A stretch of 64,000 nucleotides of DNA from Scatophagus argus (lineage: Eukaryota > Chordata > Actinopteri > Scatophagidae): the NCBI RefSeq assembly GCF_020382885.2, contig NC_058510.1, positions 7,126,862 to 7,190,861 of the forward strand, written 5' to 3'. The notes under the pieces are model-generated. The model did no database searches. It was not told the origin of the DNA and worked only from the letters and a program-made list of their open reading frames with translations. Of the stretch, positions 6,311-61,890 are shown in pieces; positions within the stretch are counted from its first letter, which is position 1, and every line of letters begins with the position of its first letter. The position numbers and the translations under genes were made by a program.

Positions 6311-7561
6311 ATGGATGTATCTTCATCCTCGCTGCAGTACGGATCAAAAAAGCGGGTTAAGATTCACCCAGACACGGTGACAGTGAAATATGCCACTCAC
6401 TTCCCCCAGCCTGGTGATGAAGGCTACGATGACGCACCCTCTTTTGAGGATTTTGGCGCCTTCGCAGAGGCCAATGTGGGAAAGAGGCTAGTGTCAGACA
6501 GCAAAAGCGGCAGGACTTTCTTTGGAACCATGGAGACCCAGCCTAAAACACCAAATGTGCAAAAAGACAAGGGGGTCGGGGGTCAGCTGGCCAGCTTCGG
6601 TGAGGCGAATGTGTTAGCCTCCAGGGTGACCTGGATGGCCTTGTTTGGGGCAGCGGTGGCTCATGGTTGTGTGGCGCTCATTACTCGCTTAGCGGCTGAC
6701 CGCTCCAAAGTACCCTCCCTCGAGCTGCTCTTCATCCGCTCCGTGATCCAAGTGCTGTCCATCCTGGTGGTCTTCTACTACCATGAGGCCCCCTTTGGCC
6801 CTAAGGGCTACCGGCTACGTCTCTTCTTCTACGGCGTGTGTAACGTTATCTCGATCACCTGCGCCTACACCTCTTTTGCCATAGTACCACCCAGTAATGG
6901 CACCATCATGTGGCGTGCTTCCACCACAGTCTTCAGTGCAATACTGGCCTTCCTGTTGCTGGATGAGAGGCTGGGCTACACAGATGTGGTCACAGTGGTG
7001 GGAAGCGTGTTCGGTCTGTGCCTGGTCATGGTGCCAAACGTAGCAGATGAAGAGAAATCCAGGCTGGGGTTTTGGAAGGAGGCCTTTGGCTACACAATGA
7101 CAGTGATGGCCGGCTTGACGGCTGCCCTCTCCATGATCGTCTACAGAGCCATCAAGGAGCGTGTCAGCATGTGGACGGCACTCTTTACCTTCGGTTGGAC
7201 GGGCACGGTGTGGGGTGCCTCCACCATGTTTATCATGCAGGAGCCGATAATTCCTCTGGATGGGGAGACCTGGGGCTATTTAATTGGGATCTGTATCTGC
7301 TCCACGGTTGCGTTCCTTGGAGTCTACTATGCTCTAAACAAGTTTCATCCAGCCTTAGTCAGCACCGTGCAGCACCTAGAGATCGTGGTTGCCATGTTCC
7401 TCCAGCTCATAGTTCTGAGGATGATCCCATCTGTCTACGACGTCATCGGAGGCCTGGTCATAATGATCAGTGTGTTCACCCTGACTGGAGTCAAGCTGTA
7501 CAGGGTGAGCAGGGCCATACGGCAGGATTATCAAGAGATACTAGACTCACCCATCAAATGA
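6311..7561 (+). CDS. slc35g2: Solute carrier family 35 member G2 (EamA-type transporter, TMEM22)
   Basis: A complete 416-residue multipass membrane protein of the drug/metabolite transporter superfamily (SLC35G, two EamA domains). It lies in a single coding exon, like human SLC35G2 (about 412 aa). The N-terminal about 105 residues are hydrophilic and carry the family stretch KKRVKIHP (13-20). About ten hydrophobic segments follow, from residue about 105 to 400, including [18 protein letters not shown] and [20 protein letters not shown]. The C-terminus [12 protein letters not shown] matches my memory of the human protein exactly. The start ATG at 6311 follows a splice acceptor at 6283, has A at -3 and G at +4 (GAAACATGG), and gives the family N-terminus. 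The substrate is not known for the family. The plasma or intracellular membrane is inferred from topology. nck1 follows on the same strand, as in mammals. Confidence 0.97.
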
Positions 7562-10509: not shown

Positions 10510-13500
10510 GTAAGACGTGGTATGGCTGAGCAGGGTAACATTAGGAATCTGAGCTGCCACTGAAGGTGAAGCTATCTGGTCCGTGCTACCACACTAACGT
10601 TTCTCACGAGAGCTGCTAGCTGTAGCTATGCTTGAATCCGCCGAGTAACGTTAGAACTCATGTCGGCTAACAGCTAATTGTTATCCCAGACAAAAACCAG
10701 TCTGTCGCCTTGCCAACATGGCCAACACACTGTTACCTGGCAGGCTAACGGCTAGTTTGGCTGTAACAGAGACATTTGTAACCACTGATAACATTTTCAT
10801 TTTCTTAGGTTAACGTTAACCAAGTCGGATAGCGTGACACGCTGTCAAGCTTAAGTTTAAAGATAAAGGCTCGGATAAAACTGCGGCACAACCTATAAAT
10901 GTGGCGACTTCATTTCGTGCAGTGCGCCACTTTAACGCTTTTTATTTCTGAGATTGAAAAATGGAGAAGACGCTTTGGCGACAGCCACTGTAAAGGGCTT
11001 ACAAAGCAAACGGCATCTTCTAATTTGCTACATCTCATCTTTTAATGTACTACATCTCTCTCGCGTTTGTATTATTTACGTGGTGTTAACTAACATGTTG
11101 AGTTAATGCTCAAGTTTAGGTTGTTGGGAGTTGAGTCCTGGTTGGACCCAGCTTGGTCATGGTCACGATGGAAGCATTCCCTCACATTAACTTTATCCTG
11201 TGATTCCCAGTACTTGTGTTAAAACAGTCGTTTAGCTGTGATTGTACACTTCTGAATTGGAATTGGGGATTTATTTATCATCATTTATCTCAAAGTCCAA
11301 GGTGGTGTCTTTAGACCTCGTTTTGGATGAAGAACATTCCCAAACCCTCAGATAATCTGTTTACAAAATTCACAGTCATAGAAAACACAAGAGAACAGCA
11401 AATAAGGCCAGTTTGTGGGTTTTTACTCAGTAATTAACTTCAATTAATCATCAAATTTCTGATTAGATTTCTGTGGATGGATGGACTATTTATATCAGCT
11501 CTCATTCAAAAGGGGAAAACTAGCATCTAGCAGAAGTATGCCTGTGAACTTCCATCTACCTTGGGAGAACAGTAACAGGCAGGAAAATGTACTGTGCTAG
11601 TGAAACCATTACAGCTTTTGGCCATGATCTTAGATAGTTGCTCCTTCTGTTTATCTCCTAACATTGTTTTTACCTTACACAACAAAAAGCCAGACTAAAT
11701 GTCATGCTTTGGTAACACAAAGAGCGATAAGGCTGTGTAATTGTTGGCTCTTGTGGCTTATGTTTGTGTGTGGAATGTTATGAAACTTGTTAAACAATAC
11801 AGTGAAACAATCAGCAGATTAATACGGCTTGGGTATTTTATCTTGCAGAGATATTTATTTGGATATTTCTGGTTGGTTTGAGCTGAATGATTTAAGGGGA
11901 TAGCATGTGTGTCTTTCCAAATGCCAAAGGGGGGTCTTTCTGCAGCTGTTGAATAGTATAGTTTCTGTAATTATTGTCACACTGACAGGCCTCTTCGCAG
12001 TCTCTCATTAAGGTTTCAGGGAGGTGGTGGTGGTGGCTGTGGTGGTGGGGGTGGGGGGCGTTTGGTCTGTAACCCTGTTCTCAGTAGGAGTCAAAGGGAG
12101 GATAACAGTTTCGTGAGAAATATGGTGGAGACCCGCTTACAAGTCTGATTTGCCTGAAGGCTTATAAATTTCTCCTGAGCATTGACGCCAGTTTGTAAGA
12201 AATGTGAAAATGGCTATTAGGGAACCTATAGAGCACATTTGCTTCTATCAGCTGCCATGAGGTCATGAGCTCACATTCACCCCCCTGACCTGAAGCTTTC
12301 ACTATGCAGCTATGCATTTTGATCGAGCAAAGATGAGACCCTGTAAACCTCATCTGGGTCCTATTTATAGTTCCTGTTGACTCATATAACCTTGTTTGAA
12401 CGTTGTGACAGTATAAGCTTATGGATATACAGTGATGAGCTCTTTCTGTTTGAGATCCTGTTTTCGCCTCTTTTTCAGTGACCTCAAGCAGCCAAATCTG
12501 TCCCCATAGCCTAGGGGAAATACCAACTGTGCATCTTCATGATGGCCAACAAACTAATGCGCCTGAAAATTTCCCTGGTCAAATGACAAGCTCAGGAATC
12601 TAGTCTGTTAAGTACCTTCGAGGTTCTATGGAAATTGAGAAATGGGGGATTTTTTTCTTTTCGCAATTGCATCTTGTCTTCTAATCTCAGTTATTGCATA
12701 CATTCACTTTCGTTTCCTCATTTTTTTAATGATTTTATTTGACATGTTTTCTTCTGACTTGTCATACATGCTTGAATGTTTGTAACATAGTGAATTTCTG
12801 AATTACTTTTTTAAAAAATACAAAAATTACCTTTCTTATTGACTGTTCAAAGAATAGCAACAGTAAGGTGAAGAATGACGAGTGCATTTTTTTAATACTT
12901 AACGTGATCAGAATCAAGTAGACCTGAAAATGTCAAAATGAGGGCTATATTTAATCAAGTCATGAAACACCGCAGAGTGTGATGACATTTCTCCCCGCTT
13001 GAAAATTGCGGTCAAGATATTTGCTATCATATTTCTCGATTAGAGTAAGTGATTTGACTTCCTTGTGTAGGAGAAAAGAAGTATGGAGTTTCAGTGTCGT
13101 TTTTTTCCACTATTAGTTCATTATGGTATGGGGTTTTCTTTCAGTGGGTTTGGCAGTGTGAAAATGAGGATGTGCGCTCTTGCAACTGTGGTTTTGTCAG
13201 AATGTGCTCTTAATAGTATACATTCCTTTCTTGATTTAAGTCGACTTTAGGTTCACAGGGCACATTTTCACGGTGATACACTGAAGCTATGTATAGCCTG
13301 AACCATCTTTTAGGTACTTTGTGTGAATTTGTGGAACAGAGAGTACATGTAGCTTACAAGTATCTGCTTCAATCTACCGCAGGGTTGGGAAAAACTAAGC
13401 ACCTCTGTGTACTTTAGTCAGTGACCATGTGTAGAACAATTTAAACATTCAAATTAAGGATGCATGATATATATTGATACAGTAATAGAGCATTAATTAT

Positions 13501-21316: not shown

Positions 21317-21852
21317 GTACAACTATCTGTTTTCAAACAGTTTCTAAATTTGCTTTTGGATTGTCACTTACAGCACCTAATCACTGTATCTGGAGAAAGT
21401 TGGGGAATAAAATACGTGAAGGCTGGGTTGATAGAGAGAATTGTTTTGGTCTATGCGTAGTGAGATGTGATGGGTACTGTGAAAACTGGATTCCAAAAAG
21501 TTTTTGTTTGTTCCTCATTACATTTATCTGATTTAAATGCTTATTGGCTTGTCTTTGTTGCAAAAGAATTATCCACCACCTCAGCCTACCAGTGGGGGAG
21601 GAAAATCGGATGTTTTACTGCAACATAATCCCTGCCATAGTGTTGTCCTTATCGCATGTGTTAGAAACTGAGGCTAACTTGATCAGTGCTACTTCTCCTG
21701 CACATGTGCCAACACTGGCCCAGACTGCATTGTATGATAGAAAGCCCATCAATCAGTTGTAACTCTCTTTAATGTTGAATGTTCACTCTGTCCACTCAGA
21801 CATCTGTTCTTTATCCTCTCCTCTTTCTCTCCACCAGTGCACCTAGTGCAAG

Positions 21853-24800
21853 ATGACGGAAGAGGTGATTGTCATCGCCAAGTTCGACTATATGGCCCAG
21901 CAGGACCAGGAACTGGACATCAAGAAAAACGAGCGTCTCTGGCTCCTCGACGACTCCAAGTCCTGGTGGAGGGTTCGAAATGCCACCAACAAAACAGGCT
22001 TTGTGCCATCCAACTATGTGGAGAGGAAAAACAGCGCCAGGAAAGCTTCTATTGTCAAGAATCTCAAAGACACACTTGGTAAAAAAATATATGTGTATAT
22101 CACCTGTGGTGTCTTCAGTTTGCAAATGTTGAAGTCAACATGCAAGAATATTTGCACTTTAAACAATATTTCCTCAGTCACTCAAGACATCTCTCTGATC
22201 AAGTCTGACTTGCTTTGTGTTTCATATGTGATGAGACTTTGTTACTGTTAGATCAGAGAGCATTGTTTGTCTAAGCCAGCATTTGCCTCAGTTTGACCAC
22301 ACTCTTGTGGTATGTAATGTACTGTGCAGCATTCTTTACAGGAAGGTGGGCTAAGGCTGATGTGTGATTGGCTTGAATGCTGAGAGCTACCTTTTTCCTC
22401 ACAGTGCACTTACATTGAAGTGTTAGTTCCTGGTACAAGTGTCTGTAGCGTAGTGGCTACTGTGCAGTGCTGTTTTTCCATTTTACCTTGAAGCATTTTG
22501 CCAGGTAAGACAGAAGTACATTTGATTTGATTTGATTCCAGATATTTTGTGGAGATTAAACACAGAGTTAATAAAGTTGAAATTTTTTAGTTTCATACCT
22601 GTCCGATAAAAGACATCTGGCCAATCTGTTTTGTGTAAGCAAATCTAAATATGACCACATTCTGTTTTTGTGTGAGCAATCGCAACATTTGGTATCCTCG
22701 TGCCCTTTTATCCTGACCAGAGCTGATACAGCACAGGTGTTGTCCGTGCTGTCAGCTCAACAGCAATATTTCTGGGCACTGCCATTTGCAAAGGACCTTG
22801 TACTGCCTGGAGCAAGCCAAATGTAACTGTGTATGTAAGCCAAGGTTACCATTTGTCTTAGCTTAATTCTTGATGACAGACATTCACGATCATTTGTGAT
22901 ATACACTCTGACCACTGGCATCCAGTCTGGCACACTGTCTGGTATTCGTTTTGCCTGTAATTTAATTTTTTGATAGTTTCACTCATGTCTTGTCTTTAGT
23001 TCCTGATGTGTTTGATGCTCTAACCTGCAGCTCCACCTGCTCTTCGGGGTATCAGTGTCTAAATAAGAGCATAATGGGATAGCCATGTTTGTTGATATAC
23101 TTTGTTTGGCCCAGATCTCATTAGATTAACTTAAAGGTTGTACACCAGCATTTGCCATTGAGCCTTAAAGGCATTGCCGGGCATTATGCTGATGTTAAAT
23201 TGTGTAAGTGTGTTTTATCAAGGTGTGTGGACCAGAAAATAGCTTAGACAGAATTGGTAGTCTTATCTCCTTTGCTCATGTGTGATGTGGTAATGATGAT
23301 GATGTTGTTCTGCTGCGTAGGGTGACTTACAAGGAAAAGCATGGGCTTCCTTGCACACGTCAGCAAAAGAATGGGGGTGTTCTGGGAAGTGTCATCACTT
23401 CCTAACTGTATCATACGCTGCAACATTTGCAATACACTTATCTGTTGGACACGTGAACTGCGTTTTCCTGTTAGCTAAGCCGTGTTTTTGTTTGAAAAAA
23501 AAAAACTGTCAGTGTTGTGGTGAGAAAACACTGGTGACATGCAGACAGCGCTGTGAGCTGAAATGCGCTGATTAAAAATGATACAAGGACAGGAAGAGGC
23601 CTCTTTACTGTAGCCATATGTATTTACTGCTCATAAATTTGTTTTGCACTGATTTCAATTTACAAGATTTTCATATTTATTATTGCTCAACTCGAGAACA
23701 TAAAGTGTTTAAGTGCTGGATGTTTAGTCCATCCAGTATATTTTTCCCTTAAGCTTGTATGTTTATTTGTGTGTGTGTGTGTGTGTGCCAGTCATGCACC
23801 ACAACCAACAGCCTCCCAACAACTTCCCACCTGTCACTACATCCATTGATCAAATAACCTAGGGAGAGATGAACAGCTGCAAGAATGACACACGTTCAGG
23901 TCTCACACACAAACCCAATAAAACGTGAACTAATGTTGAACACGAGTTGAGGCAAAACTGAGCCGTGTGAAACACTAATACAGTCATAGAAAGCTTGTAA
24001 ATGCTTCATTTCAGTTCTTCTTTTTTATGATCCATAAGTAGATTTAAGAGGCTTTGACTGGCATATTGTGGGTGGTTGTGTTTTTCTTATATGTGTGTGT
24101 GTTGGGGGGGGGGGGTAATAAGAAGTGGTCTGATGAATACACTTTCACATGTTATGTGGGAGGAAGAATCTGTCTCTCTTTCCTTTTTTTTCTTTTTTTT
24201 TTTATTTTCCTTTCTGAAACAAGCCCGTTGCTGGGTGTGGAGTGGTGTCATCGTTTGAAAGAATGTGTGAGGGTATGATCCGTCTGCAGATGGCTGTGCT
24301 GCGTTTTCATGTGCGTTTCGGTGTTTGAGGACTCATGTTTCCTGGGTTTGTTGTAAAGTGAGTGTGTCTGCAAACAACTGCAGACATGTGACACCTTGCA
24401 GTCACTGACTCACTGAGTCGCTGCAGTGTACCCACAGAATGTTTTTCCTTTTTTTTTTATAGATTACTGACCTCTTACAGTACCACTCTGCTGCTAATTG
24501 TTGATGGAGTAGCTCCTCCACTTTCTCTTTATCGCTATTCTTTCATCTCTTTTTCTTTCTTTGAGTCTGAGGTGGAACCTCTCCCCCTCCCTCACTCACT
24601 CACTCACTCCCTCCCTCCCTCCTTCCTTCCTTCTTCTTCCCCTTTCCATGAGGCCTCTGTACTCTGCCTTCCAGAGCTGAACCGGAGGCCTCTATATCTC
24701 CCTGCTCTCATTGGCTGAGCCTGACCACATGGTCAGAGAGTGGGCCGCCCTGCTCCGCTATCCGCCCAGCTCTCTGGGTGTTCACATGGAATAACTCTAC

Positions 24801-27800
24801 AGCTGCAGTGGGAAGAGAGCAAGGGCCGGGGAAGAGAGAGAGGGAGAGACCGTGAGCCCAAAATGGACATGGCTAACCTATTCAAACATTTCTTTCGTGA
24901 GTTTTCAACTTTCCTCATCTTCTGTAGCTGCTTTTTTAAAAAGTTGTTCTGAGTTGTTTGTTGTATTCCAAGTGGCGTAGAGAGCTTTTGTGTGAACTTC
25001 TGAGCTCTTCTTTTTTCTCTCACTCTCAGACTGCGGGAGCGGTTGTCAGCGTGTTTTTTTTTTTTTTTTCCTCATCTCCCCTTTCTGATTTTCATTTTGG
25101 TTCACAAGTCAGTTTCAGGTTCATGTTTGTTTGTTGAATGTGTCATAATTAGAGCAGGCAGGAAACTTTTGAAACTGATTTTTGTGCTAACATGTTGTGC
25201 TGGCAGGGCGAGGGAGAGAGGGTGTCTCAACAGCTTTTGAGGCTGTGTCTGTGTGAGCGGCTGCAAAGACTGGGTGGATATGCTTTTTGAAAAGCCTTCG
25301 GCTGAGCTGAAGCCTGTAATTGCCCCAGCAGTCCGTCTCTGTCTTTTCCTTTTAAACACATAGACACACAGTAATCCTGCTTCACTTTTTTCTTTTTATT
25401 TTTTTGTCTAGTGTTTGTCCTACTGAGTGGGCTGCAACTCAGTGGATTACATTATCATGCTTGAAGACCCCCATCTCCACCCTGTTTAGAAATATCTTCA
25501 AGACACAGTATGTTTTCTTTTATGCTACCCTCAGGGCGAACTCGCTCATTTTGGGAGGGTCCCCCTCCGACTCACCCCCTCCACCCCACCGCCAGTCATG
25601 AGCTACAGTTGAAGGGACATGGGGTGCTCATGTAGAACACTGTAGTCATTGTGCAGAGAGGAGGAAGGGGTCTCTGCTGATTGATGGGACCTGGGCTCCC
25701 ATCTCCTGCACTTCGGCCGGTTATCAGAGGAATGTCATTACCTCTACAGCTTCGTGGGCCCTGGATACTTTACAGACACACTGACACACTTTTTAACAAG
25801 GCTCTGGCGCACACCCATGTTGTAATCTCACCTTGTAACTGTTGAGTGGTATCTCCTGTGTCGGCCTATCTTCCCCACTTGTTTATGTCCTGTGACTGGC
25901 CTTTCTTGTAACCTAAAGAATCCAGAGAGTGTAAAGGACTGAGAAGAGTATAGAGATGAGCCAACAAACCTCTCTGCTTGTGTAAACTGAGAGCGGTTAG
26001 TCTCCTCTCTCTCTCTTTCTCTTTTTCCCCTCCCTCTGTTTTCCTGTTTCTCAGCCTCCCCAGTGAGCGGAAACACTAATTTGAGCCACATTTCTCCCTG
26101 AGCTTTGGAGGAGTGCAGGCCAGAGAGGAAGTGAGACGTTAGAAGGAAGTTGAATCATTGTGCTGGGGTCTGTCTGTTGGTCTTCTTCTCTGCGCCTCAC
26201 TCCCTTTTTCAACTTCAGCCTCTTTTTGTCTGAATACTATTTCTCCTCCCGACCAGAAAAGCAAAAGACACGATCATAATGAAGAGGCTGGCAGAAGAGT
26301 CGTAAACATCATTTAGGCCTGAGATGTTTTTGTGTTTTCTTGCAATAAGGGATTGCTTAAGAAGAACTGAGCAGTGGTCTGGGCATGTTGAACACTGGCC
26401 AGCACCGTAAACATCTACAGCAAAGCTCCCTTTTTCTCATTATACCGATGATTTTCACTATATTTAGATAATGTTCTTGATTAAGTGATGAGTTGTTTGA
26501 TCTATAGTAGAGCAGCAACAATGAGTTGATTGATAAATCAGCAACACCATGTTTTGATAATTGATTGAAATGAATGACTTGTCGCAGCTTTTAAAATGTG
26601 AGTATTTGTTTCAGTCTCTCTTACCTGTTAGTAAACTGAATGTCTTGGAGGGGATTTTGACTGTTGGGTGCGCATGAGATATTTTAAGACGTTGATAATG
26701 CAGCCTTAGTCTGCAGAGTGTCGGCAAATCACAGAACTGACCCTTAGAGACTGTGGTGGCAACATAAAATGCCTTTTTTTGTCCAAACCCAGTGATATTC
26801 AGTTTCAGTTTTTGTCATGCTGGAACTAGTGCATTCTTATAGGTTTGATTTGAATTATCTGAGATGCTGAAGCGACAAATCAGCACAATACTTGAAGTCG
26901 GTCCACTGTATGTTTATCTTCAAACATAATCATTACGGCTGTAAGTGACAACAGCAACAAACAGATTGCTGATTTTTATCCCCACAATGCAAATAAAGCG
27001 CCAGCTGTCCACCTGGAGGTGACTGTTGTTGTTAGAGTGACGTCATGGTGATTTATCAGTAGGTCAAAGTCCATGTCATGAGTGCAGCTGGTTAGTGGAG
27101 CTTAATAAGTTTTGTTACTGACTGAAATCAAGAATTAAGTGAAGGAGATACTTACCAGACATGTCGGCTTCATAAGTTCATGTCCCTGTTTTTTAGTTAC
27201 TCTCTGATTCAAATCAAGGTTTTGCCATGATTGGCTTGTCTTTACAACCATTTTTACATTTACAAACTTCTGTAACAATAAGAAAAAGGTTTTGTAGAAA
27301 CACATATTTCTGTCTCTTAAAGTAAAGCTCAAAACATTTTAAACACCATCCAGCCCTGGTTAAGAAGAACAGTCTGTGTCATGATACAGTTCTACAAACA
27401 CATGGAAAAGAGGAAATCTTTTGTTACTGAGCTGAGATTTTAGTACTGAAGAGAGGGGAACCCAAGATAAAAGGTGCTTTAAGATTTGGGTCAGCAGAGT
27501 AGGGGTTAAGAAAAAAATAGGTCAAAAAAAAAAAAAAGAAGAAGTTGCTGTCTGACAGTGAAGACATTTTTACAAACAACACTGCTGAAGCAGGAGTCAT
27601 GAGTTGTCAGTGAGTTATGAGGTAATCATTCCAGTGTGGCTGCTTTGATGCAGATGTAAATAAACATCAACAGTCTGACTGGACTCGCAACCAGCCGCAT
27701 TTCAGAAAATTTTCAACAAAGCTGATAATTTCTGGCATTATTATGAAAGCCTGTTTGTTTCACTATCAAGGTTCTGCTTGGCGTCTCCTCTGACAGTAAT

Positions 27801-30800: not shown

Positions 30801-33706
30801 GCATGCCCAGCTGCCAAGTGGAAATTCTTGTCCAGTAAGACGATGACCACAGGCGTGCCAGAGCTCAGCCTCCAGGCTCCATAACCCAGCAGAAGGCTAA
30901 AGGGCCCGGTAATCCCCTCTTTTGTCAGCCTCTGGGCTGTTTACAGATGGCGCCACAGAATGCAGGTCTTACACTGCACCAAGAGGTTTGACTGCACTCG
31001 TGATAAAATTCACCCTGTGGCCATTTCCCCCTCTGGCTGTCATCTATAGCCTACAAACTACAGCTGATAAAGTCGTGATAAACATGGCCCTTTTAATCAT
31101 CCTCGCTGAATGCTGAAGTCAAGCGGTCAGCACAGTGGGGTGTGTGTGGAGGGCAGCGGGGGTTGGGAGGGAGTCTGTGTGGGGAGTTTAAAAAGAGTGT
31201 CGGCAGAAATGGGACAGAGTTTGGTGTCCAGCTGCTGCGCGAAGCAAGGCTGCAGGTGTCAGGTCAGCCAAGGTGATTAGTGCAATGTGATTAGCAACAA
31301 TGAAATGTGACTGAGCGCTTTTGCCAACAGAGTTCATGGCAAGTGTATTTTGTAATTGATTTCGATATAAACGGCAACAATTTGATGGACTTGTACAGAC
31401 TACTGAACTTTTTTTCTTTGTTTTGTAGCCCCATGCCAAAACAGGTTTTCATCCCACTCAGATATTTTTTTTTCAAACCACGCCATCTTTGCTTTTTTGT
31501 TTCCTCAGCACCTAGGCCTAATCCTCAAGAATGTATTTGGATTTGGAGTGTGGGGGGTTAGGGCCCTGTAATGTGGAAAAGAAATGATTTTTAACCCTAC
31601 TTAGCCACGCTCCCTGTATGTCAGCACAGCCCCTAATGCTTATTATTGCTGCCTGGTATTTGTCTGGGGTTTTTTTGTTTTGTTTTTTTTCCCCCTTCCT
31701 TAAATTTTCAGAGGTGTTTTTTAATGGTGCATGTGTTGTTTTTTATTTTTCTGCTGAGACTTGTTCCACATGAGTGAAAATTGGAATTCCAGAGACTTGT
31801 GTTTTAGTAAAATGGTGACTTTTAAGTTAATTCACACAAAAAGACCTAAAGGTCTGATGTGTATCTGCTAATTGAGGATGCCAGTTGCCTTGTAATTGAG
31901 TTTCTGACCTAATTCACTAAACTTCATTTTAACATAGCTGATGATAATGTTTTTTTGTTTTTTGTTGCCTGTAAACTCTTTTCACCTTTCCTTGATTATT
32001 CCCTCTAGGAATTGGGAAGGTGAAGAGCAGGAAGGGGGGCATGAGAGACACAGCCTCCAACGCAGACACAGACATGTATGCAGATAACGGCGAGCGGCTG
32101 TACGACCTCAACCTGCCCGCCTTCGTCAAGTTCAGCTACACAGCAGAGCGTGATGACGAGCTGACGCTGGTGAAAGGCACGCGGGTGGTGGTGATGGAGA
32201 AATGCAGCGACGGCTGGTGGCGCGGCAGCTACAACGGACGCTCTGGCTGGTTTCCGTCCAACTACGTGACTGAGGACGTGGATGGGACGGCGGGGGGAGG
32301 GGGCATGGGCGGGGTGGGAGACCCAGCCGGATCGCTAACGGAGAAGCTGGCGGCTGTGGTGAACAGCACCACGAATGGCAACAGAGTGCTGCACACGGTG
32401 CAGGCGCTATACCCTTTCAGCTCCGGCAACGACGAGGAGCTAAACTTTGAGAAGGGCGAGGTGATGGAGGTGGTGGAGAAACCTGAGAACGACCCGGAGT
32501 GGTGGAAATGTCGCAAAGCGGACGGACAGCTGGGCTTGGTGCCAAAAAACTACGTCACTGTGCTGGACTCCTCCTCCCATAAACCTGCAGCAGGGCCCGG
32601 AGGGCCGCCCACGCCTGACTGTGACTACATCTCTCCCTCAGGCAGCGGGCGCTTCGCCGGGAAGGAGTGGTACTATGGAAAGGTGACGCGCCACCAGGCA
32701 GAGGTGGCCCTCAACCAGAGAGGCATAGAGGGAGACTTTCTAATCCGGGACAGTGAGTCATCGGTCAGTAGCCTCCACCTGTTTACCAAACAATCTTTGA
32801 TTTGTTGTACATTAGAGTTACAAGTGTTATCCGATTAATTGGCTAGTCGATTGAGAGAAAATTAGTTTCTCACTATTTTGATAATGAGTTCAGCATTTCA
32901 AGTCATTTTGGTTGGTTTGTGATTCCAGCTGCTTAAATGCAAGGATTTGCTGTTTTTCGTTGTCGTTCATGATAATAAATGAGGAGTCTTCGGGTTTTGG
33001 ACTGTTGGTTTGGATCTGAACTTGATGAGCGGTTTTCAGCTGTTTGACCTTTTAGGTGCAAAATTATTAATTAATCATGTAAATAATCAGCAGATGAATT
33101 AATAGTGCATCATTAGCTGCAGCCCTGTTGTACATGGTTCACAGTGTTGAGATATCTTAAGAAAATGGTGCTCACTTTACGATGCATCAACAGATGGATG
33201 ACTTTGACCAAAATTCTCACAATGTGACTTCTCACAACCAATCAGAATACCACCTGAAAAGGTGAGGAAAACACTGGCCCTGTGGGACATTTCGTGTAGG
33301 CCAGTTTTTATTAAATAAAGTTCAGGAAAAAAATTCTCTCATCCTCCTCCTCAGTGCAGAGATGCCTCAGCAGTACGTCCAAAACTTGTTCATTGTTTCA
33401 CTGCATTTTAAACCTAAGAGTTTACATCAGAGCCTTACGACTCAGCTCACGTTTAACAGTCTGACATGTTTCAAATTGATGTTGTATTACCTTTTCTTTC
33501 CACAGCCACACGACTTCTCCATCTCCCTCAAGGCGCAGAGCAAGAACAAGCATTTCAAAGTGCAGCTGAAGGACAACCTTTACTGCATTGGACAGCGCAA
33601 GTTCAACTCTATGGAGGAGCTTGTTGAACACTACAAAAAGGCCCCAATCTTCACCAGTGAGCAGGGAGACAAACTGTACCTGATCAAGGCCCTGGCTGCC
33701 TCCTGA
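21853..33706 (+). CDS. nck1: Cytoplasmic adaptor NCK1 (SH3-SH3-SH3-SH2)
   Basis: Three coding exons join to 393 residues: 21853-22078, 32009-32763 and 33506-33706. Junction phases are 1 and 0, both GT-AG. Domains in order: SH3-1 (about 5-60, KFDY...SWW...PSNYVE), SH3-2 (about 113-166, [10 protein letters not shown]), SH3-3 (about 206-261, PEWWKCRK) and SH2 (about 296-386), with FLIRDSES placing the phosphotyrosine-binding arginine at R322. Nck proteins link phosphotyrosine on receptors through SH2 to proline-rich partners such as WASP/WIP and PAK through the SH3s, driving actin assembly in the cytoplasm. The SH3-1/linker ([20 protein letters not shown]) and adjacency to slc35g2 favour NCK1 over NCK2. 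A few positions ([17 protein letters not shown]) look NCK2-like, so this may be one of two fish nck1 copies. The start ATG lies 15 nt after the acceptor at 21837. The linker between SH3-2 and SH3-3 is Gly-rich (GGGGMGGVG). Confidence 0.96.
24580..24862 (+). promoter_or_regulatory. nck1: Probable internal promoter for the short nck1 isoform
   Basis: Upstream of the alternative first exon lie a CT tract (about 24580-24647, CTCCCTCCCTCC) whose complement has five G-runs and could form a quadruplex, and an inverted CCAAT box (ATTGG) at 24710-24714. A moderately GC-rich leader (GGGCCGCCCTGCTCCGC, about 24742-24758) follows. No TATA box is convincing. There is no upstream ATG in the frame of the short isoform within this leader. 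The promoter role is inferred from position. Confidence 0.45.
24863..24896 (+). CDS. nck1: Alternative first coding exon of nck1 (isoform lacking SH3-1)
   Basis: ATG at 24863 opens [11 protein letters not shown] plus one base, followed by the strong donor TTTC|GTGAGT at 24896/24897. The exon ends in phase 1, the same phase as the normal first coding exon. It can therefore splice to 32009, giving R then [10 protein letters not shown]. The predicted protein is 329 residues with SH3-2, SH3-3 and SH2 but no SH3-1. I recall the same peptide [12 protein letters not shown] as the start of a short human NCK1 isoform. If that memory is right, this exon has been conserved since the fish-tetrapod split. 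It sits inside the 9.9-kb intron, so it needs its own promoter. Confidence 0.8.
26512..26706. repeat. Degenerate copy of the ATTAATCG-type MITE
   Basis: AGCAGCAACAATGAGTTGAT, then TTTTGATAATTGATTGAAATG, GTAAACTGAATGTCTTGGAG and GACGTTGATAATGCAGCC follow the same order as the better copies at 32830-33126 and 57465-57720. This copy is shortened and diverged. Confidence 0.55.
32830..33126. repeat. ATTAATCG-type MITE in the last nck1 intron
   Basis: CGATTAATTGGCTAGTCGAT at the left and AATAATCAGCAGATGAATTA...TTAGCTGCAGCCCT at the right are imperfect inverted ends. Between them are the recurring blocks ATTTTGATAATGAG, CAAGGATTTGCTGTTTTTC and TTCGGGTTTTGGACTGTTGG. I recognise this as an abundant percomorph dispersed repeat. 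It begins about 65 bp after the splice donor at 32764. Confidence 0.75.
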
Positions 33707-38840: not shown

Positions 38841-40998
38841 TTAGAAGTAGAGGGAGTCAGATATGGCGGCGGGCAGATGGGTCATCAGCTGCCCTCTGAT
38901 CCACCAGTGTGGCTCCGTGGGATTGTAACGCGTATACGGACGCTTGGACATGATGGCATCGGTGATGTCATCCAGAACAGGGGCCACATCCTTCTGCCCG
39001 CTGTTGCAGTAGGAGCGCATCAGAGCCATGTGTTGCTCGAAGTGGGCTTTCCCATAATCCTCTTTCACGTGCGAGGGCGCCTCATTCCACAGCTTATTGG
39101 CCGTGCAGGCCACGATGTCGCGGGTCAGGATGCCGGTGGCCACGATGAAGTTCCCCGGTTCCACTATGGACACTTTCACTCCCCAGGCCTTCATCTCATA
39201 GCGAAGGCAGTCAGAAAAAGCTTCAACGCCATATTTAGATATGCAGTAAGGTGACCGCATGACATTTCCCATGCTGCCGTACATGCTGCTCAGGTTCACA
39301 ACGCGACCTGCAGAGATACAGGCAACAGAGCCGTAGTCAGGCTTCAAAACAAACACTGAATTTACACGAGAAGTATAACATAATGACCAAATTAATGCAG
39401 CACCATGAGTAACAAAATGATGAAATGAATTTTTAATGCATATTTTCTTTACTGCATTTCACAGCATGGAGAAAAGCATTAAAGTTGTCTTTCAATTTGA
39501 GGCTTGCTCGCATTGTCAGCATTCATCACAGAAATCATGGGACACATCGCATTGCTCAGCTTTCAAATAAGAACTTTAAGAATGCTTGTAATCCTTCATA
39601 AACAAACCTGCCATTTTGGACACTGTTTAACTTGTTTTATGCAGCTGCTGACCTTTGGCCCTGCGGATTAACGGTAGAACAGCTTTGGTGACCCTGATAG
39701 TGCCCCACAGGTTGACCTCGGACACCTGCTTGTAGGTGTCCATGGAAGTAAACTCTACTTCTCCAAATGTGGACACACCAGCGTTGTTCACCACAGCCCA
39801 CAGACCTGTGTCGGGACCAGTGACAGATTGTCAGAGAGGGGGGAAAAGTCTGTGAATGAACACACACACTGACTCTTTACTCTGTGCTAGTTAGTTACAG
39901 TGACCAGAGTCACTTACCTCTTTCTGAGTCAGCCAGGTTGTCCCTGATATATTCCACAGCCTGGTTCACCTGTTCATCACTGCAGACGTCCAGCTGGACG
40001 ACTTTCATGCGATCTGAGTTGAATTCCTCGAGCTCCTTCGCACCCTCTCCACCTTTATCCTGCAAGGGTGACATGTCTACTTGGTTATAATACCACGACA
40101 GATGAAAAGCACACGGGTTAATCTATAACCACATCTACCCAGACATGTTAGTCAAATATTTAAGCTCAAAGTGAGAAGTCAGTTTGGATAACAGGAATTA
40201 CAGACTGTGGAGCTGAAACAGCACCTTTTCAGACCAGTTTCAGTAGGAGTCGTGAGGGCGAGGTTCGTAGTGTTAAGTGAGCAGTCACTGCACATTTCAT
40301 CTGTACCTTAAGAAGGCATCCAGCAAAGACTGTAAAGCCAAGCTTGTGCAAATGTTTGGCCAGCGAATGACCAAATCCACTGTCGCAACCTGTGACAAAC
40401 ACAGCTTTCCCCTTCACCTGCAGACAGGGACAAAATATGCTTATGGTTACATAAATCTAGAAAGATACAGAAAGGGACAATAGAAAAGCTTACATGTATT
40501 ATCTATAGCACGTAGTGTCGTGAAATGAAAATATCCCACAAGGAAAAGTTAACCTTAGGTATAAGCATTAATAGGACGTCACTTAGCTTATCAATTTACA
40601 ATAATAATAATAATGATGATAATAAAACCAGCACCACCATTTACAACAATTTCTTTAACTAACACGTATTATACCATGGATGGTGCTTGAATTCTTCCTA
40701 AATGTGTTATATGGTAATATACCGTAACGGATGGGACATAATCTCATTTTAGTTTGGGACTATTGAGTCCATACTGTAACATTACCTCCACCAGTCCTCT
40801 GGGGATTCGAGGCGTCGCAACATACAACACAAAAAGTAAATACATCGTAACTATGCACTCGGTGACACTCGTCTCCGGTAATCCCAACATCCTCATCGCT
40901 GCGTTCAGCAGAGCAGGCAGTCCCAAACCCAACACAACAGTTAGAAACACTGAAAACGACACCAGAAGTGCCGCTCGGAACACAGAGAGCGGGGCCAT
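38841..40998 (-). CDS. bdh1: D-beta-hydroxybutyrate dehydrogenase type 1 (SDR9C family)
   Basis: Five coding exons on the minus strand, 40998-40786, 40417-40307, 40059-39918, 39805-39653 and 39307-38841, join in phases 0, 0, 1, 1 to 361 residues. Visible SDR features: cofactor-binding TGCDSGFG (80-87), NNAG (162-165), and the catalytic set S214, Y227, K231 (SPYCISK). [18 protein letters not shown] and VEPGNF match BDH1 very closely. BDH1 reversibly oxidises (R)-3-hydroxybutyrate to acetoacetate with NAD+, in mammals on the inner mitochondrial membrane. Oddity: instead of the Arg-rich mitochondrial presequence of human BDH1 (343 aa), residues 1-71 contain two hydrophobic stretches (about 9-30 and 48-62), as in membrane-anchored SDR9C relatives such as HSD17B2. 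A teleost paralogue with another location or substrate is therefore possible. The family call is firm; the exact activity is less so. Confidence 0.88.
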
Positions 40999-43378: not shown

Positions 43379-46300
43379 TTATTTGAGAAAAGTATCAAGC
43401 TTTCTCTGGATATTGTCAAATGAGTCCAGTCCCATGTAGTCTGCCTGACCTTGCTCCCATTTCTGCTTCCGTTCCTCTGAGGACAGCTGGGGTTTGAGCG
43501 CTTGTGCATGTGCATGTGCACGTGCATCTGCATGTGCATGTGCATGTGAAGAGCCGCTCTCATCCTGAGCAAAAAATATGAAATGATACACAATAAGTCA
43601 AACAAAGAGAAGGAAAGCAGGATATGATCACTGACAAGAGACACATACTGCAGAGAACACATATGTTGCGCTCAGTGCTTTTTGGAGGCACTGAAACAGC
43701 CATACGTAGCCTTTCCAAATTAATGGCCACACGTCAAAGCTCTCATTTTAGAGGAAGAGCAGAAATATTATTAAAGCAGCAGTAATAGCATTATAAAAAA
43801 GGTCCAGTGTGCAGGATTTAGGGGCACAAACAAAATACAATTAAGTTTTCATCTACAGAGGGAGTGGGTCCTCTTTCACAGAGTTCGCCATGTTGCACCA
43901 CCATTTTTCTACAGCAGCAAACCAAACACTGGCTCTATCGCAGTTTTGATGGCACCATAGCAGCCACACATTGGACCTTTAAACCAGTGCCAACTGAAGA
44001 AAACCAACACCAATATAACACCATACCTGTGCACTCTCAAAAGTGACTGTGTCACTGTGCTGGAACTTTATGAGATGAATGGGAAGACAGAAAAGAGGTA
44101 TATCATCCAGAATCAGAGCGAAATTGAATGTAAAAACAGTACAAAGTAAAATAAAAATGTGAAAAGTAAAATAATGCAGGTGTGACAAAAAAAATCATAA
44201 ACTTACATAAATATGGCGCAACACATTTCCAAACATAGAATCTTTTCCTTATTAACAATACAAGCACCACAATCATCAAATCCTTTAATACTTATATATG
44301 TATGAATGGAACAAGCTGACGTACCAAGTTGTTTGCAGTGTAAATGTAGGCTTGCAGGTGTTATAAAATAAATGTGTTCATTCACCTCCACACATCCGGA
44401 GTGGAAAGGCTGGTCTCCATATTGTTCCTGCAGCATGGGCACCACAGCGTTGGAGTACAGGGTCCACCAGTCCAGGAGGAAGGTGGGCTGTGCAGCGGCC
44501 TCATGCACACGCCCTGCGATCTGTTTGGCTTTGGGGTCAAATGCGTAATTCCATGGCTTGGTTTTCCCTAGGAAATGGACCACCTTGGCATTGCCACCAT
44601 ATCTGAAAGAAGAAACGCAAATTACAATCACATTGTCACTGTAGATGATATATTATGGTTACACACAAAAAACCCCCCAAAAAACCAAAAGTGCCCAACA
44701 ATAGAGAGAAACATTAAAAAGTGTCCATCCTATAGGAGCTGATGTTTTCAACATTTAGGGGACACTGGGGACATTACAGCTGCCGAGACCGATCAGGGAC
44801 GAAACTTACCGTAATTTCAGAGGTGGGGAAGAGTTCAAACTAGTGCAGTCTACATGTAATTGGAGCCAGCGTGGAGGTGACTGTGATTATGTGTGGTGAT
44901 GAGACGAAGATAAATTAACTGATGTTTCACCAGAACTTCCCTTTGCCGAGTTTCTTAATGGACAGCTGAAGTGTCTGACTTATTGTTCGGGTGTCTGCTT
45001 CTGCGTACAGAACCTGAGTGAGATACAGTCAGTCAATGCAACACTTATATTTGGTTATGTGATTTATGCATCATGTTTGTATGTTCACCTTTATATACGA
45101 CTGCATATGGAAAAAAAAAGGTTAAAAGCTCCATGGTCCCCGTTCACATCACAAGGTTTGAATGTGTTTGCATTCAAAGGATAAGTGGTTATAGATAATG
45201 GATTGATACATACCCAAAGTTCATGTGTCCACTAATAAGTATGAATATAGTCCTGGGGCACTGCTTTGTTGTGTTTGCCAGACACTGGCAGCACTACTAT
45301 TGCTAACAACTGCCATCAAGTAAATACATGTTTATCACCCCTGTCATCCTGATTGGGCTGCCAGGAAATACCAAACCTAAGAGCTTGTTGATGAAGTTTG
45401 TTTCTATTGGGTGAGAGGTTTACACAGACATTCAAAAAGAGATGAAGGTGGGAGGGGGAGATGGGGGTTAGCTTAACACAGAGTACACAATGACAAGGCC
45501 CAGACGCAAACATTAAAAAAGTTCTTTAAATAAACTGTTCTATTTCGGGCTTTGGTTTCAGCTGTTGGGAGCTCAGCAGTGGATATCCAACCCAGTGCTG
45601 AGGCCTGCTGGGGGATGTTCCAGCCGCTGGAATCTTCTCATCTCGCTCGTAACCTGATGTCATATTACAATGTGACTACACATTCATGTGATCCAGTATC
45701 TGCTTACACCTCGGCTTTGCATCCGTTGACAGACTCGCAAACACTAAAGCTACAGCACAGAAAAACAGCAAAAATAAAATGTTGAATATCACACCACTGA
45801 CCACTGGGTGAATGTTTAGAAACGCGACCTGTGATGGACACTTACTGCTTGAATGCTGGAAGGTAAGTGTAGATGGCTATGCTGCTGAGGTTGTAGATGA
45901 AGGGGAGGTGTTTTGATATGTCAGCTGTTGCCCAATTGCTGAAGAAGCCATTCAAAACACCTTGGTCTCCTCCTGAGGGAGAAAGAAAAAAAAAAAATCT
46001 AACATCTATTTAAATATGTAATTTCAGATGTGGTTAAAGTCAGAAGAGTTTTAGACATCATCCACTTTGGTTGGTTTTATCAAAATACTGTATCATGTTT
46101 CCACAGATGCAGTATTTGAATTGGAAATGTAAATTTAAGTTTGTACTGCAGAATCCCACCGAACAGCACCACAGAATCTGCATTTTAACTTTACTTTGAA
46201 GACCCTTTTCATACATTTGTGTTCACTTCCGTACAAGTCGTTTTCTGCCCATTTTATTTGCATTAGATGTGTAAACGTACTTGAAAGACAACAAACCTAG

Positions 46301-60690: not shown

Positions 60691-61791
60691 TCACTTAACG
60701 TCAGAGGAGGCCTTACTTTTGGCTGTAAGGCTCAAGGCCTCAGAGGCACGAAAAGAAAGGGAGCTCATCTTGGAGCTGATGCTCGGGTGAGGAACTGTCA
60801 CTCCACCTGGTGAGCAGTGCAACAGACGCAGCAAGTTCTTGCGAAAGTTGTGCCCAACAAAGCCGTACACAATGGGGTTAACGCAGCTGCTGATGTAGGC
60901 AATGCAGATGGTGAAGGGCATGGCGGTGTCAATGATTTCCAGGATGGCACAGTTATCCCCATGTGTCAGCTGGGTGAGCATCTGCATTAAGTGGAACACC
61001 TGATGGGGCGCCCAGCACAGGAAGAAGGCCAGGACAGCTGCTGCAAGCATGCGCAGTACCTCATCATCCCGGGAACGAGAGCTTTTCTGAACGTGTCTTG
61101 CTCCAACCAGCGCCCGTCCGATCAGGCAGTAACACGTGATGATGATGACAAAGGGCACCAGGAAGCCCAACAGGCTTTTCATCACACTGATGGCAAGCAG
61201 GAGCTCCTTTAACCCCTTGGCATTTTTGGTGCCTGGGTGCAGAACGGCACACACTGTGCTGTTAGAGTCTGCGATGTTGTAGACATCCCTTGTCAGTGCG
61301 GAGGGCACACTAAGCACAAAGGCGAAAAGCCAGATCACTACACAGGTGATGTGTGCATACGCCACAGTGCGGAACCTGCGTGATCGCACCGGGTGGGCAA
61401 TGGCAAGGTAACGGTCAATGCTGAGTGCTGTGAGAAAGAAGACGCTGGTGTAGAGGTTGAACATCGCCATCCCTCCACTGGCCTTGCACAGGAACCCTCC
61501 AAAGGGCCAATGGTAGCCCGTGGCAGTGAATGTAGCCCACATAGGTAGGGTGATGAGGAAGGTGAGGTCGGAAACAGCGAGATTGAGCACAAAAATGTTG
61601 GCCACTGTCTTAAGCTTCATGTAGCAGTAGATGACAGCCACTACCATACTGTTTCCGACAATGCCGATGACAAAGTTACAACCATAGACGATGGGTACCA
61701 GGGTGAAAATGATTTCATGGCTTCCGGACATGCCGCATTTCAGAATTATCTGTTGTTCTGTCGCTCCTGCAGTTATGTTCTGCATTTTCAC
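60691..61791 (-). CDS. agtr1: Angiotensin II receptor type 1 (class A GPCR)
   Basis: A single coding exon of 366 residues with seven hydrophobic segments. AT1 binds angiotensin II at the cell surface and signals mainly through Gq to control vascular tone, salt balance and aldosterone or cortisol release. Seen: N-glycosylation site N5 (NIT), disulfide pairs C19-C281 and C102-C181, TM1-ICL1 signature GNSMVV...YMKLKTVA, D75 in TM2, DRY (126-128) and NPIVY (305-309). AT1 pocket residues conserved: Y36, W85, R168, K205, D288. The tail KMSSLSFRASEALSL matches the AT1 KMSTLSYR motif, which excludes AT2. Differences from human include Q270 at the position of D263 and A109 at V108. It sits next to cpb1 as in mammals. 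Fish may carry two agtr1 copies and which one this is cannot be told here. Confidence 0.95.
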   Translation of the reverse strand: MKMQNITAGATEQQIILKCGMSGSHEIIFTLVPIVYGCNFVIGIVGNSMVVAVIYCYMKLKTVANIFVLNLAVSDLTFLITLPMWATFTATGYHWPFGGFLCKASGGMAMFNLYTSVFFLTALSIDRYLAIAHPVRSRRFRTVAYAHITCVVIWLFAFVLSVPSALTRDVYNIADSNSTVCAVLHPGTKNAKGLKELLLAISVMKSLLGFLVPFVIIITCYCLIGRALVGARHVQKSSRSRDDEVLRMLAAAVLAFFLCWAPHQVFHLMQMLTQLTHGDNCAILEIIDTAMPFTICIAYISSCVNPIVYGFVGHNFRKNLLRLLHCSPGGVTVPHPSISSKMSSLSFRASEALSLTAKSKASSDVK

Positions 61792-61890
61792 TTTTTAGTG
61801 CCAGATCCTGGGAGTTTTAAACAGGGGCCCTGTCGGCAGGGTGCGTCTGTGGCGACTGATACAGGCCTTGGGCGAGGGCCTCAGCGAGAC
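61792..61890 (-). other. agtr1: agtr1 leader part of the coding exon, splice acceptor
   Basis: On minus, TGTTTCTTTTATAG ends at 61891, giving a 99-nt leader before the ATG at 61791-61789. Vertebrate AT1 genes have non-coding upstream exons and an intronless coding region, which fits. The upstream exon(s) are not identified; they lie further right, possibly outside the window. Confidence 0.55.

Follow-up and report, generated by a model that had tools for sequence, protein, structure and literature searches.

The nck1 locus and its coding exons

The analysed stretch of Scatophagus argus DNA, called the window here, comprises 64,000 nt. It carries an nck1 gene with three coding exons that together encode a Nck1 protein of 393 residues, referred to as the full form. 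The exon carrying SH3-1 probably starts at the acceptor at 21838. The coordinates of the features discussed here are collected in Table 1.

The domains of the encoded protein were compared with solved structures. The top match of the SH3-1 piece was human NCK1 (2jw4). Among the best 60 of 627 matches, SH3-2 was closest to NCK1 2cub and SH2 to NCK1 2ci9 and 2ci8, and the top matches of SH3-3 were NCK2 chains. The last result may simply mean that no NCK1 SH3-3 structure has been solved. A gene of the EamA-family transporters, which we take to be slc35g2 (formerly TMEM22), is located upstream. The NCK1 structure matches of SH3-1, SH3-2, and SH2, together with this TMEM22-like upstream neighbour, identify the gene as nck1, and the same structure matches and upstream transporter assign the alternative exon described below to it. 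The human 3q gene cluster consists of STAG1, TMEM22, NCK1, and IL-20RB, according to an excerpt of PMC3575385.

Table 1. Positions of nck1 exons, associated signals, and other genes in the window
Feature	Position	Strand	Remarks
EamA-family transporter gene	6311-7558		upstream of nck1
CpG-rich segment	10501-11250		CpG observed/expected 0.87-0.88; good donor at 10510
Canonical first coding exon part, SH3-1	21853..22078	+	226 nt = 75 codons plus one base
CCCT repeats	24585-24630		upstream of 24675
Possible untranslated part of the alternative exon	24675..24862	+	candidate, if the acceptor-like site at 24675 is used; exon 222 nt in total
Upstream ORF	24729..24794	+	21 codons and a stop; 68 nt separate it from the alternative ATG
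Alternative 5' exon, coding part	24863..24896	+	34 nt: ATG at 24863, 11 codons plus one base, phase 1
Donor GTGAGT	24897..24902	+	exon base -1 = C; 3.94 bits, 88.3 percentile of 3960 GTs
Shared exon	32009..32763	+	linker, SH3-2, SH3-3, start of SH2
Linker KVKSRKGG	32017-32040	+	directly past the junction
Last coding exon	33506..33706	+	rest of SH2 and stop
Short-chain dehydrogenase exon	38844-39458	-	
ORF	44206-44652	-	
Rhodopsin-family receptor ORF	60694-61794	-	

A probable alternative 5' coding exon in the large intron

The intron between the SH3-1 exon and the shared exon is 9,930 nt long. The first-pass annotation had placed in it a 34-nt exon of 11 residues plus one base followed by the donor GTGAGT, and all coordinates and letters of this exon were confirmed. 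It should be noted that the 34 nt are the coding part alone and that the 5' end of the exon could be the acceptor-like site at 24675. The sequence and phase of this exon, as well as the product and domains that result from joining it to the shared exon, are shown here. The canonical coding exon and the alternative one both end one base into a codon (phase 1), as the annotation had claimed. Since the shared exon begins with GA, the split codon is GGA (G) after the canonical exon and CGA (R) after the alternative one. When 24896 was joined to 32009 in silico, the junction remained open and the product was 329 residues long versus 393 in the full form, i.e., 64 fewer, so the predicted length of the short protein held as well. 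A Pfam search of this product found two SH3 domains plus SH2, in agreement with the proposed loss of SH3-1 and retention of SH2.

The donors were scored with a simple matrix of approximate frequencies, and the percentiles were calculated over the 3960 GTs in the window. The donor of the alternative exon is weak, yet it resembles the two other coding donors of nck1 (3.74 and 4.59 bits; 87.7 and 91.8 percentile).

Two possible routes to the alternative exon

An intronic promoter may be one of two possible routes to the exon, the other being splicing onto 24675. No CpG enrichment was seen at the alternative exon, as the observed/expected ratios in the two 200-nt bins of 24601-25000 were 0.28 and 0.43. 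The CpG-rich segment far upstream, with its good donor, may hold the main nck1 promoter and a noncoding first exon.

The acceptor-like site before 24675 scored 8.15 bits, which is the 98.0 percentile of the 4377 AGs in the window and is near the values of the acceptors of the exons at 32009 (8.35 bits) and 21838 (8.87 bits). The sequence CTTCCAG ends a pyrimidine-rich stretch just before this position, and CCCT repeats are located further upstream. This site opens the possibility that the 34 nt form the end of a spliced exon of 222 nt (24675-24896), the length of which is a multiple of three. The piece would then be the 3' part of an internal exon rather than of a first exon next to a promoter. 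With a noncoding first exon spliced in front of it, the piece would yield the short isoform from an mRNA whose leader contains the 21-codon upstream ORF. Joined to the SH3-1 exon (22078-24675 in silico), it adds 14 residues and then an in-frame stop at 24716-24718, and an mRNA with a stop at this position is expected to undergo decay. The outcome of the second join would be either a protein product or an mRNA-decay switch that lowers full-length Nck1. This arrangement is quite possible, albeit at less than even odds: 14 of the 657 AGs in the intron, 24675 itself included, score at least as well, so such acceptors are not rare, and the frequencies of the acceptor matrix, like those of the donor matrix, are approximate.

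Likeness to human NCK1 isoform 2 and to other systems

We assume that human NCK1 isoform 2 starts with the same first 12 residues as the product of the alternative exon. The two human isoforms are presumably 377 and 313 residues long, and this difference of 64 equals the gap between 393 and 329 residues found here. The likeness would comprise these 12 residues at the start, the splice junction, the absence of SH3-1, and the 64-residue difference. The linker that follows the junction in the fish protein does not match the motif K/RxK/RRxxS, which is reported for the SH3.1-SH3.2 linker of Nck and is reported to mask SH3-2 there, in the excerpts of PMC8187788. In the short form, this linker comes right behind the new N-terminus.

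A comparable case is that of Tks5 beta and Tks5short of Sh3pxd2a, as described in parts of PMC4178035. There, an internal alternative 5' exon likewise gives a multi-SH3 scaffold protein that is devoid of its N-terminal domain and has a short unique start. It is a different gene, however, and the domain lost is PX rather than SH3. In addition, the Tks5 forms are backed by cDNA clones and antibodies (PMC4178035, same parts).

Searches of the open-access literature returned no occurrence of the exon peptide or its pieces, nor of four related identifiers. Among the matches listed, no study of NCK1 devoid of SH3-1 was found by title or by the start of the abstract, and the excerpts of PMC4138027, PMC10755736, and PMC6557995 make no mention of such a form. 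The number of solved chains containing the 22-residue N-terminus was 0.

These searches bear on the idea that the transcript exists while the short protein has no role of its own and is a tolerated side product of a second start site, which would serve to transcribe the locus. We regard this as unlikely, because the coding sequence must be under constraint if the human and fish peptides are truly identical, as we assume. What favours it is that the matches listed from the open-access literature included no work on the function of such a form and that the words 'splice' and 'alternative' are absent from the review PMC8187788.

Chance expectation for the exon anatomy

By itself, the anatomy of the alternative exon is within chance. 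The plus strand of the intron (9,930 nt) contains 14 phase-1 strings running from an ATG to a donor of equal or better score. Six of these reach 30 nt or more, and the alternative exon is the sole one of the six with a purine at -3 and a G at +4. Strings of this kind, with the same minimum length and a strong start context, numbered 3, 3, 1, 0, 0, and 3 per 9.93-kb block in six successive blocks of the window, the third and fourth of which overlap the nck1 intron. Given 14 comparable strings in the intron and 0-3 per block, the phase match and the donor were rejected as evidence in themselves. A status far above chance would come from the identity with the human short isoform, which we assume.

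The same counts, together with the weakness of the donor, are what would be expected of a mere chance frame, namely an intronic ATG that stays open for 11 codons up to a weak in-phase donor with no mRNA behind it, but this is improbable, as chance would not give the assumed 11-residue identity with the start of the human isoform, and the presumed human length difference of 64 also fits.

Several scans were uninformative on the exon. DNA pattern scans gave 0 matches in viral and in prokaryote contigs, an expected outcome with no bearing on vertebrates. The bacterial promoter and terminator scan gave 0 and 1 sites, respectively, and both the tRNA scan and the Rfam search at the gathering cut-off gave 0.

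The most probable reading and the predicted product

In favour of the exon, we counted its strong start context, the phase match with an open junction, and the two SH3 domains plus SH2 in the product. Against it, we counted the weak donor with C at -1, the lack of a CpG promoter mark, the chance-level anatomy, the NCK2 matches of SH3-3, and the absence of the peptide from the open-access literature searched. We put the probability that nck1 truly has an alternative 5' coding exon here at roughly 0.8. The exon is probably genuine and of a type already known, and it is the likely counterpart of a catalogued human isoform. Its transcription, orthology, and function are what we infer from the features above. 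With somewhat less assurance, we still favour the joint claim that the exon belongs to nck1 and is orthologous to the start of human NCK1 isoform 2, that it gives the product described, and that the function of SH3-1 is lost.

If the exon is real, an mRNA that is either initiated within the intron or spliced onto 24675 would have 24863-24896 as its first coding piece joined to 32009. Its product would be a Nck1 of 329 residues in which a new N-terminus of 12 residues is followed by SH3-2, SH3-3, and SH2, with no SH3-1. Such a protein would dock on phosphotyrosine sites with two SH3 domains rather than three.

Predicted effect of the loss of SH3-1 on partners and clustering

Since SH2 is kept, phosphotyrosine docking should persist in the short form. 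Partners of SH3-1 would be lost. In excerpts of PMC7278359, the proline-rich sequence of CD3 epsilon is bound by SH3.1 and would be one of them. In Table 2 of PMC8187788, CYFIP2 is entered under SH3.1 for Nck2, and WASP and eIF2 beta are entered under several Nck SH3 domains; the binding of the latter two to the short form would be weakened. The excerpts of PMC4138027 report that cytoplasmic capping 5'-kinase activity was kept with Nck1 mutated in SH3-1 and not with Nck1 mutated in SH3-2. As this partner needs SH3-2 and not SH3-1, the short form should retain it.

The effect of SH3 number on clustering is described in sections of PMC4238058, where the valency analogues of Nck were repeats of SH3-2 and not the short isoform. 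In the presence of phospho-nephrin and 500 nM N-WASP, the three-SH3 analogue clustered at 200 nM SH3 modules, while the two- and one-SH3 analogues failed to cluster at 500 nM N-WASP even above 10 uM. With 5 uM N-WASP and 5 uM SH3 modules, the two-SH3 analogue did cluster, so the effect of having two SH3 domains is a shifted threshold and not a loss (PMC4238058, same sections).

By analogy with these constructs, the most likely role of the short form that we infer is that of a Nck1 of lower SH3 valency, which would bind phosphotyrosine and cluster N-WASP less readily. A two-SH3 Nck1 might shift the clustering threshold in the way the analogues do and act as a brake in competition. With its SH3-1 partners lost and N-WASP clustering reduced, short Nck1 would compete with the full-length protein and raise the threshold for actin assembly. 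Even granting that the exon is real, we put this braking role forward as tentative.

The new N-terminus has a modest amphipathicity: its observed moment was reached by 110 to 671 of 20,000 shuffles, depending on the peptide length (three were used) and the scale (two were used). These counts are uncorrected for the choice among lengths and scales, and this is just a lead. It is very doubtful that the LFKHFFRIGKVK N-terminus forms an amphipathic basic helix in front of the linker regulating SH3-2 that has been functional since the bony-vertebrate ancestor, gives the short form a membrane or partner contact of its own at a lower condensate valency, and turns the same exon into an off switch when it follows SH3-1.

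Should the exon prove to be shared by fish and human, a seemingly little-studied form of Nck1 would have persisted over a very long evolutionary span. Nck serves as a model of signalling clusters driven by valency. A naturally occurring isoform that lacks one of the SH3 domains would, if true, provide a built-in control of valency, which could be addressed with existing reconstitution assays. The short form could also survive knockouts or knockdowns aimed solely at the SH3-1 exon.

Other genes in the window

Three further coding features were seen on the minus strand downstream of nck1. The ORF at 44206-44652 has no Pfam match and in our view resembles glycogenin. The short-chain dehydrogenase exon presumably resembles bdh1, and the rhodopsin-family receptor ORF is, we assume, similar to agtr1.
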